A DNA stretch of 64,000 nucleotides from Terriglobales bacterium (GTDB lineage Bacteria; Acidobacteriota; Terriglobia; Terriglobales; Acidobacteriaceae): NCBI GenBank assembly GCA_035624455.1, contig DASPRM010000075.1, forward strand, positions 62,001-126,000. The letters are read 5' to 3'. The notes beneath the pieces are model-generated. The model was not told the origin of the DNA. It ran no database searches and saw nothing but the letters and a program-made list of their open reading frames with translations. The translations under genes were made by a program, and so were the position numbers. Of this stretch, positions 14,031-21,539 are shown in pieces. The stretch's first letter is position 1. Every line of letters starts with the position of its first letter.

Positions 14031-14425
14031 GGCAGTTTAAAGGTACATCACTGGACGAGAGTGCGGAGTGTCCCCGTACTGCTACCGAGCCGGCGGAACT
14101 CTTGGAGCGCCTTTCTTAGCGAAAATTAATACTTCCTCAAATTGAGCCCCACGCCTGCTGATCCACGGAAGACGGCAGATGCCTTGAAGTTGATGCATTC
14201 CCACAAACGGAAATTCCCTGCGGCCTTGATGCACCACTTGAGCTTTCAATGATTTGTGTTCTCATCACGACGTGCCACACTGTTGCAAACCGCACGACGG
14301 AATCAGCTTCGCTTGGATTGAAGTGCCGCAGGATCGGCCCCCGGGAGTCACCGTTTCGCAGTGGTAACGAGTTTGCATGCAGAATTTCCGATATTGAGGC
14401 GCCACTCAGGGGCTCACAACTATTT
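14031..14425. other. stretch without a supported gene
   Basis: Between the glycerol kinase remnant and the proposed start of the next gene there is no convincing reading frame, promoter, hairpin or repeat. The downstream frame stays open from 14249, but its translated N-terminus (MICVLITTCHTV onwards) resembles no domain and has no ribosome binding site. The stretch looks like decayed sequence, consistent with the neighbouring pseudogene and the truncated kinase domain that follows. Confidence 0.4.
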
Positions 14426-15325
14426 ATGGTCGAAATCAGTAACGCATTGCCCGCGCTCAAACAACGCATCCGTCGCATTCTCGGCCCTCGAATTGAACTT
14501 GTCTTGATGAATAGCTCCGGGCTGGACCAGATTGAGGGTCAGCTGGCCTCTTTTGAGCAAGCGACGTTGGAACTGACCATGCTGGCCAGGCTTGCGATGC
14601 CGTTTGGCGGAAAATTGGAGATTGAAACAGCCAACCTGGAGTTGGAACAGCCGGTGCTTTTGAGCAATACCACATTGCACCCGGGCAGGTATGTGCTGAT
14701 GGAGATGATCTGCCTTCGTTCGCGCCCTGCGGCCGAACTCCTCCGCTGGGGATTGGATCCCGATCCCAAGCTGCGAGGCTTTGACGATTCCGGAATTCGT
14801 ATCGCGCGCGAAATCTTTGGCAGTGGCGGAGCAACTCTGTGCGAGTATAACGAGCCAGGTAGATCCCTGAGGTTTCGTGTTTATCTACCCAGCTGCGCGA
14901 CTTCAGTCTATTCAGGTGGTCTCTGCACAATGCTCGAAGAGGAAGATCGAAGGCCGACGATCCTGCTCGTCGAAGACGAGGGTTTCGTACGCAATGTAGC
15001 CTGTGAAATTCTGCAAACGGCCGGCTATCACGTCATTAGTGCCCGCAGCGGCACGGAAGCACTGCAATTGTTCCACGAGCGGGGCCGGCGAATAAGTCTA
15101 TTGGTGACCGATGTAATCATGCCTGGGATGAACGGACCTGACTTAGCGGAGAAGCTCGCTGCAATGCAGCCGGGATTGAAAACCATCTATATGTCAGGTT
15201 ATACGGATAATGCCGTCCTGCGCGATGGAGCACAGCAAGCCGGTGTTGTGTATCTGCAAAAACCGTTCACTCTGAATGCGCTTACCGGCGTAGTGCGGGA
15301 AGCCCTTGCTCAATCCGCGGCTTAA
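14426..15325 (+). CDS. response regulator fused to a degenerate kinase ATPase domain
   Basis: The C-terminal 120 residues form a complete receiver domain: acidic pair in LLVEDEGF, phosphoacceptor Asp in LVTDVIMPGMNG, Ser in YMSGY and Lys in LQKPF. The preceding 165 residues align with the ATPase part of hybrid histidine kinases (ending LRFRVYLPS, as in the usual FxIYLP) but have lost its catalytic boxes. The N-box reads LTMLARLAMP where LNLAxNARDAMP is normal, and the DxGxG and GTGLGL motifs are gone. No phosphoacceptor His or sensor domain is left. The start is set at the ATG 14426 with AGGGG about 14 bases upstream; an open frame continues to 14249. The receiver might also be translated alone from the ATG at 14930. 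Confidence 0.65.
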   Translation: MVEISNALPALKQRIRRILGPRIELVLMNSSGLDQIEGQLASFEQATLELTMLARLAMPFGGKLEIETANLELEQPVLLSNTTLHPGRYVLMEMICLRSRPAAELLRWGLDPDPKLRGFDDSGIRIAREIFGSGGATLCEYNEPGRSLRFRVYLPSCATSVYSGGLCTMLEEEDRRPTILLVEDEGFVRNVACEILQTAGYHVISARSGTEALQLFHERGRRISLLVTDVIMPGMNGPDLAEKLAAMQPGLKTIYMSGYTDNAVLRDGAQQAGVVYLQKPFTLNALTGVVREALAQSAA

Positions 15326-15382: not shown

Positions 15383-16465
15383 TCACCGAAGCCGGTAGAG
15401 GACACTTACCAACTTGTGGACATCTTTCGTGTAAACGTCCATTTCTTCTACAAAGCGATTCCAGTTCAGGATGCGGGCTGAGGGACATGATTCCCGCAAC
15501 ATTACGGCTGCCCGATCGGATAGCCAGTTCAGCGTTAGTTTTTCATCGTACCCGTAGCCGAGATTGCGCATGCGACAAAGACGGTCGCTCAAACTTACAA
15601 GTGCAACCAGATCGCGGCTACTTCCTTGCGGGGGATCTGCATGATGATGTCCGCGAATGGCTTCCACCAGGTCCGGTGCCAACCTCCATTTTTCTGCCAG
15701 CAACTCGCCGCTGAGACAATGGGTGAAGCCTAGTGCGTCCTCTTCTACCTGGTGTACAGGTATCTGTTGCAGCTGAGCTAACCCGATGGCATCGATAAAC
15801 TTCTCTGGAAAGAGGCAGAGGTTTACGATGAAGCCGACATCGTGCAAAAGACCGGCCAGGTAGGCTTCCTCAGGATCGCGATATCCGATTCTCTTAGCGA
15901 GCTTACGAGATACCAGAGCGCAAGCGAGGGAGTGCTCCCATAACAAAATAGGGTCGAAGGTTTGATCCACATTAGGCAATAGTTTCAGGACACAGCAAGA
16001 GAGAGCGATACCTTGCATGCGCTGGATGCCAAGCGCGATCACGGCTCCCCGAATGGTAGTAATGGTTTGCCAGCGTCCCCCTTCGAGGAACTTTGCCAGC
16101 TGCTGCGGGTCGGACTTCTGCAACGAGTCCAGCTTGCTTGCGCTCAGTTCCTGGGTGCGGGAAACCTGCTCGAGAAGTGCTTTCGCTCCGTCATCCCCAA
16201 AGGCCTTTACCAGCAGGCGGGTGGCGTATTCCGTGCCCCCGTGCGCCAAGTATTCCTGGGTCAGGGTGAGCTTCTGGTATTCCTCCAGCACTGCTAGGCC
16301 CGCCTGCGGAGGAATACGCCCGAGTTCGCCCACTGCCGCGGTGAGCCGCTGCACCTCTTGCTCCGGCAGTTGGCGATATACGCTGCTGGCGGCATCCTCT
16401 CCCAGCAACACCAAGAGGATCGCTGCCTTCTCCAGACCGCTCGGAGATGCCGTATGAGAGCTCAT
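15383..16465 (-). CDS. FliG N-terminal region fused to an HDOD domain
   Basis: Residues 1-128 are FliG: KAAILLVLLGEDAASSVYRQ at the start (FliG_N, which binds FliF) and LDSLQKSDPQQLAKFLEG, the beginning of FliG_M. From about residue 130 the sequence is an HDOD domain lacking its first 60 or so residues: TITTIRGAVIALGIQRMQGI, LLWEHSLACALVSRKLAKRI, YLAGLLHDVG and LVEAIRGHHH. The frame is continuous for 360 residues. The FliG middle and C-terminal (torque and MotA-contacting) domains are absent. The ATG overlaps the fliF stop by four bases (ATGA), exactly where fliG belongs. Either a deletion joined two genes or the fusion has been kept for a new role at the FliF ring. Confidence 0.85.
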   Translation of the reverse strand: MSSHTASPSGLEKAAILLVLLGEDAASSVYRQLPEQEVQRLTAAVGELGRIPPQAGLAVLEEYQKLTLTQEYLAHGGTEYATRLLVKAFGDDGAKALLEQVSRTQELSASKLDSLQKSDPQQLAKFLEGGRWQTITTIRGAVIALGIQRMQGIALSCCVLKLLPNVDQTFDPILLWEHSLACALVSRKLAKRIGYRDPEEAYLAGLLHDVGFIVNLCLFPEKFIDAIGLAQLQQIPVHQVEEDALGFTHCLSGELLAEKWRLAPDLVEAIRGHHHADPPQGSSRDLVALVSLSDRLCRMRNLGYGYDEKLTLNWLSDRAAVMLRESCPSARILNWNRFVEEMDVYTKDVHKLVSVLYRLR

Positions 16466-18180: not shown

Positions 18181-18480
18181 TCAGAACTGCAACCGGGCAA
18201 TTTCCTGATACGCCGCCACCACCTTGTTACGGACCTGCAACATGAGCTGGAAGGACAAATCTGCTTTCTCAACGGCAATCATGGCGCTATGCACCTCCGC
18301 TCCTTTCCCGGCAAGCACAGCGGCAACGTTCTCCTCTGCCCCCTGGTGCAGCTGATCGACTTCGCCGATAGCCGCCTGCAGTACATCTCCAAATCCGCGC
18401 TCTCGATCGGAAGGTCGGGGAGCCGCAGCGGGCTCAATGTCCGCGGGCAGGATTCGGAGTGGCGTGACAGTGTTGCTCAT
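18181..18480 (-). CDS. fliE: flagellar hook-basal body protein FliE
   Basis: This 99-residue protein matches FliE, the adaptor between the MS ring and the proximal rod. The conserved C-terminal half is present: IAVEKADLSFQLMLQVRNKV followed by VAAYQEIARLQF. The N-terminal half is variable and Pro-rich, as is usual. It sits between flgC and fliF in the order typical of flgB-flgC-fliE-fliF operons. Confidence 0.93.
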   Translation of the reverse strand: MSNTVTPLRILPADIEPAAAPRPSDRERGFGDVLQAAIGEVDQLHQGAEENVAAVLAGKGAEVHSAMIAVEKADLSFQLMLQVRNKVVAAYQEIARLQF

Positions 18481-18499: not shown

Positions 18500-18940
18500 T
18501 CAGCGTAGCAACTCGATCGATTGCTGTATCATCTGCTTGGTCGCCTGTACTGCCGAGGAGTTCAATTCGTAGGCGCGCACCGCGCTCATCAAGTCAGCCA
18601 TTTCCGCGACTGGATTGATCCCGGGAAATGCTACGTAGCCCTGTGCGTTGGCGTCAGGATGCGAGGGATCGAAATGCATTTCCGGTGGTGAAGGGTCGGT
18701 TAGTACTGCTGCGACCCGCACTCCCTGACTCACCTGGCGGCTGTGAAATGCTGCCTCGATCAGGCGCGGAAATCCGCCTACGACCTGCGACTGGAAAACC
18801 ACTTGTTTCCGCCGGTACGGACCCCCCTGCGGCGTGCGCGTAGTCTCCGCGTTAGCCATGTTTACTGCTACGACCTCGGCCCGCAGCCTCTCCGCCCCCA
18901 GCGCCGATCCGCTTACCTCCAGCATCCCGAACAGGTTCAT
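18500..18940 (-). CDS. flgC: flagellar proximal rod protein FlgC
   Basis: FlgC forms part of the proximal rod. The N-terminal rod signature is clear (LEVSGSALGAERLRAEVVAV with NMANAETTRT), as is the C-terminal repeat (YVAFPGINPVAEMADLMSAV, RAYELNSSAVQATKQMI). The length of 146 residues is usual. It starts two bases after the flgB stop and is followed by fliE after 19 bases. Confidence 0.94.
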   Translation of the reverse strand: MNLFGMLEVSGSALGAERLRAEVVAVNMANAETTRTPQGGPYRRKQVVFQSQVVGGFPRLIEAAFHSRQVSQGVRVAAVLTDPSPPEMHFDPSHPDANAQGYVAFPGINPVAEMADLMSAVRAYELNSSAVQATKQMIQQSIELLR

Positions 18941-18942
18941 CT

Positions 18943-19296
18943 CTACCTCCCTTCGTTGATGGCGCTTAGAAGACGGTGGAATTCGGCGCGCAACAATTCT
19001 GTGGCCATGCGATAGCGCAGCTGGTTGTCTGACAGCAACAGACTCTCCCGCTCCAGACTGACGTTATTTCCGTCGGGTCGCTCGACTAATCCCTTCACCT
19101 GGCGTATTGGGGGATGCTCTGCCACTGACGAATAGATTTGTGCTTTACCCAACTCTGCCTGAAAATCGATGTCGCGCGTGCGATATCCTGGAGTATCGAC
19201 GTTCGCCATGTTGCTGCTGATCAGGCCGTGGCGCATTGCCGCTAAATCGAGCGCCCGGGTAAGCGTGACAATTTCGGGAGTGTCAATCAGGCTCAT
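18943..19296 (-). CDS. flgB: flagellar proximal rod protein FlgB
   Basis: FlgB is the innermost rod protein. Residues 9-40 carry the flagellar rod signature (LTRALDLAAMRHGLISSNMA followed by NVDTPGYRTRDIDF) and the C-terminus has the coiled helix RMATELLRAEFHRLLSAI. Length is 117 residues, within the normal range. The ATG overlaps the stop of the upstream sigma-54 regulator by four bases, so regulator and rod genes are translationally coupled. Confidence 0.93.
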   Translation of the reverse strand: MSLIDTPEIVTLTRALDLAAMRHGLISSNMANVDTPGYRTRDIDFQAELGKAQIYSSVAEHPPIRQVKGLVERPDGNNVSLERESLLLSDNQLRYRMATELLRAEFHRLLSAINEGR

Positions 19297-20318
19297 GCAT
19301 ATCGCCTCGCCAGTTGGTAGTCACGAATCTTGTTTCTCACGGTGCGGATGCTGACGCCCAGCATCTTGGCGGTCAGGGAACGATTTCCCGAAGTCGCTTC
19401 CAAAGTCAGCTCCAGCAGGCGCTTTTCCGCGTCTCTCAACGAGAGCCCGGCCCGCAAGGCATCCTCAGGTGCACTCCCAAGCTGAAACTCTCTGCCGCGC
19501 AAAGCCTCCACGCCGATCTCTGGCCCGGGAGAGAGCACCAAGGCGCGGCGAATCACATTCTCTAACTCCCGCACGTTGCCCGGCCATGAGTGCTGGCTCA
19601 ACCGCTCCAGGAATTCTGAGCTAAATCGCTTCTCCGCTCTACGGCCTACGCCGCCATACCGCAAGCGGAAGTGGTCTGCGAGGAGGGGAATGTCGCTCCG
19701 TCGCGCCCGCAGAGGAGGCAACGTCAGGGGAATGACGTTAAGCCGGTAATACAGGTCGGCGCGGAAATCTCCTTCTTCCACCACTTTCTCCAGGCAACGA
19801 TTAGTAGTGGCAATGACCCGCACTTCTACGCGCACAGTTCGTGAGTCTCCCAGGCGCATGAACTCGCGTTCCTGCAGAACCCGCAGCAGTTTGGGCTGCA
19901 GGCTGAGAGGCATTTCACCGATCTCATCGAGCAGCAGGGTTCCGCCGTTGGCGATCTCGAATTTGCCTGGTCGGGCATCGATCGCGCCCGTGTAAGCGCC
20001 ACGTGCATGACCAAACAGTTCGCTCTCCAGCAGAGCTTCCGGAACCGCTGCGCAGTTCACGGCGACGAAGGCCCGATTGCGCTGCGCACTGCAGTCATGG
20101 ATATAACGCGCCAATAACTCTTTGCCAGTGCCGCTCTCGGCTTGGATCAGGATATCGGCGCTGGTCGCGGATATCTGACGCGCCAGATCGAGCACCTCAA
20201 GCAGCGCCGGCGATTGGCCGATAAGTGCGCTAGCCACGGGCACGGCAGCGGAGGAATGAGAAGCAAGGATGACTTCTCGCCCCGCAGCGTTGGGGAAGGG
20301 TATGGACTCGACTGACAT
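19293..20318 (-). CDS. sigma-54 dependent activator, FlrC-like without receiver
   Basis: This is an AAA+ activator of sigma-54 RNA polymerase. It has a Walker A (AESGTGKE), the sigma-54 contacting loop as GAYTGA (Tyr replaces the more common Phe), Walker B (GGTLLLDEIGEM) and a C-terminal Fis-type helix-turn-helix (LTAKMLGVSIRTVRNKIRDY). The N-terminal region is only about 40 residues and holds no receiver. The ATG at 20318 is preferred; the frame also opens at a TTG at 20348. Overlap with flgB suggests it controls the flagellar genes that follow it. Confidence 0.88.
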   Translation of the reverse strand: MSVESIPFPNAAGREVILASHSSAAVPVASALIGQSPALLEVLDLARQISATSADILIQAESGTGKELLARYIHDCSAQRNRAFVAVNCAAVPEALLESELFGHARGAYTGAIDARPGKFEIANGGTLLLDEIGEMPLSLQPKLLRVLQEREFMRLGDSRTVRVEVRVIATTNRCLEKVVEEGDFRADLYYRLNVIPLTLPPLRARRSDIPLLADHFRLRYGGVGRRAEKRFSSEFLERLSQHSWPGNVRELENVIRRALVLSPGPEIGVEALRGREFQLGSAPEDALRAGLSLRDAEKRLLELTLEATSGNRSLTAKMLGVSIRTVRNKIRDYQLARRYA

Positions 20319-20363
20319 CAACAAACAAGGGTGCAAGGAAGTTGCCAAGCCAGCTGCCGACGG

Positions 20364-21539
20364 CTAAGTTTTCTCTAAGCCCACCCGCTCTAGGATCTCC
20401 CGCCGCACAGGTGGAATCTTGGAGAAATAAATATGTTCCGACCTGATCTCCGATCCGCCCTCCACCAGCAACCATGCTCGTTCCACCACATGCATTAGCT
20501 CGCGCACATTCCCCGGCCAGGTATGCCTCAGCAATAGTTCAATCGCGCGCGAAGAAAAGCCCAAGCGACCTCCGCTATAGATCGCCAGGAAGTGTTCCGC
20601 CAGCCGCAGAATGTCTTCTTTGCGCTCGCACAAGGGTGGAATCGAGATGGGAAATACTGCCAGGCGGAAATAAAGGTCGTCGCGAAACTGACGATCCGCC
20701 ACTCGCTGTGCCAGTTCGGCGTTGGTGGCCGCCACCACCCTCACATCCACGCGAAATACATCTGTGCTGCCCAGCCGCTGAACCTCACCTTGTTCCAGGA
20801 AACGGAGCAGCTTGGCCTGCAGTCCAATCGGCAACTCTCCCACTTCATCCAGAAACAGCGTCCCTCCGTGAGCGGCGTGAATTCGTCCAACCCGCGACTG
20901 CACAGCTCCGGTAAACGCCCCTTTCACGTAGCCGAACAACTCCGCTTCCAGAAGCGCTTCCGGAATAGCGGCGCAGTTGATCACCGCAAACGGACGGGCT
21001 GAACGCGGACTCAATTCGTGTATCGCTCGCGCCACCAATTCTTTGCCGGTCCCTGTCGGGCCAGTCAGCAGCACCGTGGAACTCCGCGGCGCTACCAGCC
21101 GGGCCAAACGCGCCACCTGGAGCATGGCCGGGGTCTGCCCCACCATCCCAGATAAGGGCTCGATGGTGATCGCAAAAGAGTCTGCCGCGCGAGAGAGCTC
21201 CCTCTCTGGGGGAACCTGCAAGAGTTCCAAACTACCCACGGCGGACCTCGCACCGGGTGTCCTCGTCTCCGAATCCAGAACCGTGACCTGTACTCCAGGG
21301 AAACGTGTGCGGATCAGGTCACTGAGTTCTTCAGCGTCCAGGTCGGGCAGCCGACTGTCGAGAAGAACCGTGCGGCAATCGCTGGCCTCCAGCTTGGCCA
21401 GGGCATCCGCTCCACCTTGGGCCAATTCTATTGGGCAGCGATTGTTCAAGGCAGCCAGCATCTGCTCACGAAAAGTCACGCTGGCACTGGCCACCAGCAC
21501 GGGAACCGAGGAGTCCGAAAACGCGGGAAGAGTCGCCAT
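20364..21539 (-). CDS. sigma-54 activator, FleQ-like, degenerate receiver and no HTH
   Basis: Residues 12-100 form a receiver-like domain that keeps one Asp (TVLLDSRLPDLDAEEL) but lacks the acidic pair (VLVASASVTFREQ), as in FleQ-type flagellar regulators. The AAA+ domain follows with Walker A (TGPTGTGKE), intact GAFTGA and Walker B (GGTLFLDEVGEL). The protein ends about 40 residues after WPGNVRELMHVVERAW with no Fis-type DNA-binding domain. It would therefore have to act from solution, through a partner, or on promoters recognised by the neighbouring HTH-containing activator. It is first in the flagellar operon. No clear ribosome binding site precedes the ATG. Confidence 0.85.
   Translation of the reverse strand: MATLPAFSDSSVPVLVASASVTFREQMLAALNNRCPIELAQGGADALAKLEASDCRTVLLDSRLPDLDAEELSDLIRTRFPGVQVTVLDSETRTPGARSAVGSLELLQVPPERELSRAADSFAITIEPLSGMVGQTPAMLQVARLARLVAPRSSTVLLTGPTGTGKELVARAIHELSPRSARPFAVINCAAIPEALLEAELFGYVKGAFTGAVQSRVGRIHAAHGGTLFLDEVGELPIGLQAKLLRFLEQGEVQRLGSTDVFRVDVRVVAATNAELAQRVADRQFRDDLYFRLAVFPISIPPLCERKEDILRLAEHFLAIYSGGRLGFSSRAIELLLRHTWPGNVRELMHVVERAWLLVEGGSEIRSEHIYFSKIPPVRREILERVGLEKT

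Follow-up and report, generated by a model that had tools for sequence, protein, structure and literature searches.

An in-frame FliG–HDOD hybrid at the fliG position of an Acidobacteriota genome as the probable scar of a deletion within the flagellar cluster

In the 64,000-nucleotide stretch of Acidobacteriota DNA analysed here (the window), the gene at the fliG position encodes the N-terminal, FliF-binding part of FliG joined in frame to an HDOD domain that lacks its start. This hybrid is very probably the scar left by a large internal deletion of the flagellar cluster, an evolutionary relic, in our view, and not a new machine.

Results

The hybrid is a single open reading frame whose two ends belong to different protein families (Table 1). 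Pfam places FliG_N at residues 9–105 (E 2e-26) and HDOD at residues 133–275 (E 6e-37), the latter covering profile positions 52–195 of 196, so that the HDOD domain is incomplete and lacks its start; the profile of the HD subdomain is matched over its full length (2–116 of 116). FliG_M stays under its Pfam cut-off in the hybrid, and FliG_C has no Pfam match within it. When compared with sequences in the PDB, solved FliG chains cover residues 8–138 and the HDOD chain 3hc1 covers residues 133–305. The FliG part is 63% identical to the FliG of one relative (G029) over residues 1–138, and the HDOD part is 52% identical to the HDOD protein of another (G015). Because both halves have strong independent matches, chance is excluded as the origin of the hybrid. 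A sequence-only reading of the window had proposed an in-frame chimera at the fliG position, with a switch near residues 128–132 (about position 16080), an unbroken 360-residue frame, preserved HD residues and coupling to an intact fliF, and these proposals stand: the chimera is borne out by Pfam, the PDB matches and the alignment with separate parental genes; the alignment puts the switch at residues 129/130, within about 16076–16084; the frame, read on the minus strand, is open between 16465 and 15383; H178, the HD pair at 208–209, H273 and D294 are all present; and the fliF stop overlaps the start of the hybrid in an ATGA at 16465–16462.

The same reading had also placed at the joint a DPxxLAKxL stretch shared by the two parents, and here our alignment with relatives leads elsewhere. 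In this region the FliG of relatives reads …DPQQLAKFLEGEHPQTIAL… or a close variant, their HDOD protein reads …LHMANSPLFGRWQ…RGAV.ALG…, and the window protein reads …DPQQLAKFLEG/GRWQTITTIRGAVIALG…, where the slash marks the joint. The DPQQLAKFLEG of the hybrid is entirely FliG-derived and the HDOD counterpart of that segment, DxSLAAQxLHMANSPLFG, is wholly deleted; the joint itself, FLEG/GRWQ, falls beyond the shared stretch, at a place where the two parents agree over no more than 1–3 nt. Since its HDOD counterpart is missing, the DPxxLAKxL stretch was rejected as the site of a crossover.

Table 1. Features of the hybrid gene and of the remaining flagellar cluster (positions in the window)
Feature	Position	Strand	Remarks
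Response-regulator gene	14249–15325	plus	Conserved right flank of the cluster; listed ORF, true start probably further in
FliG_N::HDOD chimeric ORF, 360 aa	15383–16465	minus	ATG start
HDOD-derived part, residues 130–360 and stop	15383–16078	minus	HDOD protein from codon ~69 on; Pfam and alignments
Joint of the presumed deletion, codons 128–130 (GAA GGG GGA)	16076–16084	minus	Parental ends without long homology
FliG-derived part, residues 1–129	16079–16465	minus	FliF-binding FliG_N and start of FliG_M; Pfam and alignment with relatives' FliG
fliF, 550 aa	16462–18114	minus	Intact; stop overlaps hybrid start
fliE	18181–18480	minus	Intact; Pfam FliE, E 1e-25
flgC	18500–18940	minus	Intact; Pfam and relatives
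flgB	18943–19296	minus	Intact; Pfam and relatives
act2	19293–20348	minus	FlrC-type sigma-54 activator without receiver domain; likely start ATG 20318
act1	20364–21539	minus	Sigma-54 activator, cluster head (left flank)

The window keeps the head of a flagellar cluster (act1, act2, flgB, flgC, fliE, fliF and the first 129 codons of fliG) and the neighbour of its tail, a divergent response-regulator gene. Only the hybrid lies between the two, no operon genes are left downstream of it, and both natural flanks of the joint are found on one 143-kb contig. The act2 gene of the window has no receiver domain, which is present in relatives (REC at 164–274 in G029), and no histidine kinase gene stands between act2 and act1; the two features together suggest a second, smaller deletion. 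The act2 counterpart of another relative, G005, likewise begins past the receiver.

The remnant ORFs, 3.8 kb long in all, are intact. Where all the other aligned proteins share one residue, the window deviates at 0 of 27 positions in FlgB, 2 of 13 in FlgC, 1 of 23 in FliE and 6 of 107 in FliF; in the hybrid, at 1 of 26 in the FliG part and at none of the 34 HDOD positions invariant among 15 relatives. These counts are within or near the range seen in relatives (FlgC is slightly above the 0–1 of those with an uninterrupted flgC), conserved residues are kept about as in genes of intact clusters, and no remnant gene shows decay clearly outside the intact-cluster range. In the AlphaFold model of the hybrid the HD part reaches a pLDDT of about 85–95, the FliG part is moderate, and residues 103–156 around the joint are below 50. 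Foldseek returned HDOD structures at the top and FliF–FliG structures lower.

We compared 200 genomes of the window's family, in which the two halves were found only as separate genes and a match over residues 1–360 was obtained solely in the window's own genome. Six relatives (G029, G010, G122, G045, G131 and G013) carry fliG and the HDOD gene on the same contig and strand, 28–39 kb apart, as the opposite ends of one flagellar/chemotaxis cluster. Their FliG, of 337–344 aa, is placed after fliF (the G131 copy is split by an apparent frameshift), and the HDOD gene, of about 298 aa, stands at the end of the cluster. Between the two, Pfam identifies in G029 fliH, fliI, flgD, flgE, fliL, fliO, fliP, fliR, flhB, fliA, fliM, fliN, flgF, flgG, flgA, flgH, flgI, flgM, flgN, flgK, an flgL-like gene with flagellin domains, flbD, motA and motB; flhA was found in this cluster by a separate search. 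In many relatives cheW, cheA and cheR precede the HDOD gene and cheB follows it, these che names being read from the sequences and not from Pfam. The parental genes are therefore separate and collinear in relatives, with conserved flanks, as expected of a deletion scar. In a tree of the HDOD part the window groups with G015 and G077 (support 99/97). G077 has full-length fliG and HDOD genes and a long left flank syntenic with that of the window; its flagellar cluster (L181–L186) lies in three pieces on two contigs, and cheW, cheA and cheR gave no match between its motB and HDOD genes. In the family as a whole, FlhA was found in 92 and FliF in 94 of the 200 genomes, that is, in about half.

The organism is a soil bacterium of the Acidobacteriota, with a genome assembly of 4.39 Mb in 166 contigs, 97.7% complete. 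Five family searches (FliG_C, FHIPEP, FliM, Flagellin_N and MotB_plug), all positive in flagellated control genomes, gave no match anywhere in this assembly, and on the basis of these searches, which stand for FliG_C, FlhA, FliM, flagellin and MotB, we rejected the idea that another full set of flagellar genes lies at a different locus. As genes for the export gate, the rotor, the filament and the stator are missing, the genome holds no functional flagellar system and, given established knowledge of these parts, the cell should no longer be able to build a flagellum. The sequence-only reading had left a choice between motility lost by deletion and an HDOD domain newly attached to the MS ring; the genome-wide lack of key genes, together with the separate and collinear parents of the relatives, points to the former. 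A complete HDOD paralogue is encoded beside a cheR-like gene on contig C101 of the same genome.

No other full-length FliG_N–HDOD match was found in overlapping samples drawn from the family (200 genomes), the order (397) and the phylum (396), the order and phylum searches covering matches at E ≤1e-45 only, where a distant fusion could be missed. The chimera used as query against a contig collection gave no match; an HDOD-family query on the same collection found HDOD as a separate gene in named Acidobacteriota MAGs, and flagellar and chemotaxis proteins used to scan around these genes revealed no FliG–HDOD fusion. Among the family, order and phylum genomes sampled, then, the combination is limited to the genome of the window, and the existence of a conserved FliG_N–HDOD family was rejected. 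Judged by titles, abstract beginnings and term counts, none of four literature records that combine FliG with HDOD describes a fusion of the two, and nothing relevant turned up on the loss of flagellar clusters in Acidobacteria.

In further members of the family the same cluster bears scars of other kinds, which indicates that its deletion recurs. In G005 (L048 2826–4007), FlgC from residue 1 to about 105 is in frame with MotB from residue 33, giving a protein of 393 aa, and downstream of the scar come a gene resembling cheR and an HDOD gene that is intact. In G048 (L051 10024–10482), FlgE from 1 to about 93 is in frame with the C-terminal ~66 residues of CheR (152 aa in all), and the remaining cluster, flgB to fliI, is found about 140 kb from the scar on the same contig. 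G691 (L164 8127–8849) has FlgH ~17–86 in frame with CheR ~215–298, and G092 (L067 13290–14849) has act2, to residue 552, in frame with FlgC 80–146, as well as a fliF truncated at residue 442 in the same cluster. An in-frame internal deletion of MotB is present in L101, and the scars of G069 and L083 are out of frame. G015, a close relative of the window, lost its cluster through a different joint, where the 5' part of act1 meets the antisense 5' part of the flagellin gene fliC (L044 11009–11697), and kept the HDOD gene and the matching flank genes. The cluster at L083 (6243–6990 and 7246–7808) is badly eroded, with act1, the end of flhA, fliA, the start of fliM and frameshifted u294 and flgF remnants standing ahead of intact cheR, HDOD and cheB genes; an apparent in-frame FliM::u294 fusion at this locus was rejected once the frames were checked. 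The FlgC::MotB, FlgE::CheR, FlgH::CheR and act2::FlgC chimeras resemble the hybrid in being in-frame products of an internal deletion of the same cluster; they differ from it in the genes and end points involved and, for this reason, represent separate events. Apart from the window's own, five of the seven same-strand scars are in frame (G005, G048, G092, G691 and L101), with P = 0.045 for at least five at a rate of 1/3, a count that is small and post hoc and that gives p = 0.10 when the internal MotB case is left out.

Discussion

According to the explanation we favour, the ancestor would have carried the flagellar cluster that is standard in this family of Acidobacteriota, in the order act1-act2-flgB-flgC-fliE-fliF-fliG-fliH-fliI-...-flhB-flhA-fliA-fliM-fliN-...-flgK-flgL-fliC-flbD-motA-motB-(cheW-cheA-cheR)-HDOD, and about 28–39 kb of it, from codon ~129 of fliG to codon ~69 of the gene for HDOD, would have been removed, either at once or in nested steps, the two ends having practically no homology to each other. 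The two frames would have happened to match, leaving fliF followed by a translationally coupled FliG_N–HD hybrid, and the export apparatus, C-ring, hook, filament and stator genes would have gone, and the flagellum with them. A deletion with these end points would take out precisely the parts that the hybrid lacks, namely the middle and C-terminal domains of FliG and HDOD residues 1 to ~68. We infer its size and its possible single-step nature from more distant relatives with contiguous clusters, because the cluster is split in G077, which is the closest of the relatives that have both fliG and HDOD at full length. Since the invariant positions are mostly kept, either the deletion is recent or selection still acts on part of the remnant, and the conservation data fit both; the intact ORFs and their retained residues do speak against a long-dead relic.

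It is unlikely, in our assessment, that selection kept fliF and the hybrid after the loss of the flagellum as a stripped MS ring, to whose cytoplasmic face FliG_N would anchor a signalling or scaffold domain of the HD type. FliG_N and the C-terminus of FliF are in fact both retained and translationally coupled, the HDOD part keeps 34 of 34 invariant residues and the FliG part 25 of 26, and the HD part is confidently predicted to fold, the FliG part less so. A recent deletion, however, predicts an intact sequence equally well, the HDOD fold lacks its first part and the region around the joint is poorly modelled, the fusion is known from a single genome among those sampled, and a complete HDOD paralogue is available beside cheR. 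If such a complex did exist, a remnant of the flagellum would have been put to new use, in a family whose cluster has repeatedly collapsed through deletions, with several of the joints in frame. On the deletion reading that we favour, binding to FliF by way of FliG_N is the most that the hybrid could do, and it has no evident job.

The hybrid shares with FliG (Pfam FliG_N, FliG_M and FliG_C) the FliG_N domain, the place after fliF and the ATGA coupling, but its FliG_M is cut after the first residues and the torque-generating FliG_C is absent from both protein and genome. With the cluster-tail HDOD protein of relatives, of which 3hc1 of Geobacter is a solved relative, it shares residues ~69–298, the HD-type residues and the complete HD subdomain, whereas the first ~68 residues (profile 1–51) are replaced by FliG. 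Laboratory FliF–FliG fusions (PMC11481574) also involve the MS-ring FliF/FliG junction; they reportedly join FliF to FliG, while the hybrid joins FliG_N to an unrelated HDOD domain in a cell where no flagellum is possible.

An assembly or binning artefact, with a joint present in no cell, appears quite improbable. The named relatives found are metagenome-assembled genomes and the assembly is apparently fragmented; there is, however, no repeat at the joint to mislead an assembler, the frame is preserved across two genes of the same cluster joined in the same orientation, both natural flanks are on the 143-kb contig, and the missing key flagellar genes do not turn up elsewhere in the assembly. 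It is also improbable that the in-frame joint was itself selected, whatever the role of the hybrid protein, because an out-of-frame scar would stop translation and silence downstream operon genes: the in-frame count given above and the chemotaxis genes and/or HDOD found downstream of the scar in G005, G048 and G691 would agree with it, but that sample is small, out-of-frame scars may decay faster and escape detection, and no operon remnant is left 3' of the hybrid in the window.

A deletion internal to an operon that yields a chimera is a known kind of process, of which the hybrid and the scars of its family are new examples. They also advise caution, as what appears to be a novel FliG–HDOD architecture can be the product of a deletion and not a new function. 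As a probable snapshot of flagellum loss, the hybrid would show how a cluster-internal deletion takes almost everything and leaves a chimeric gene behind, and the scars of the family provide a natural series in which to ask which flagellar pieces outlast motility and whether in-frame joints are favoured.
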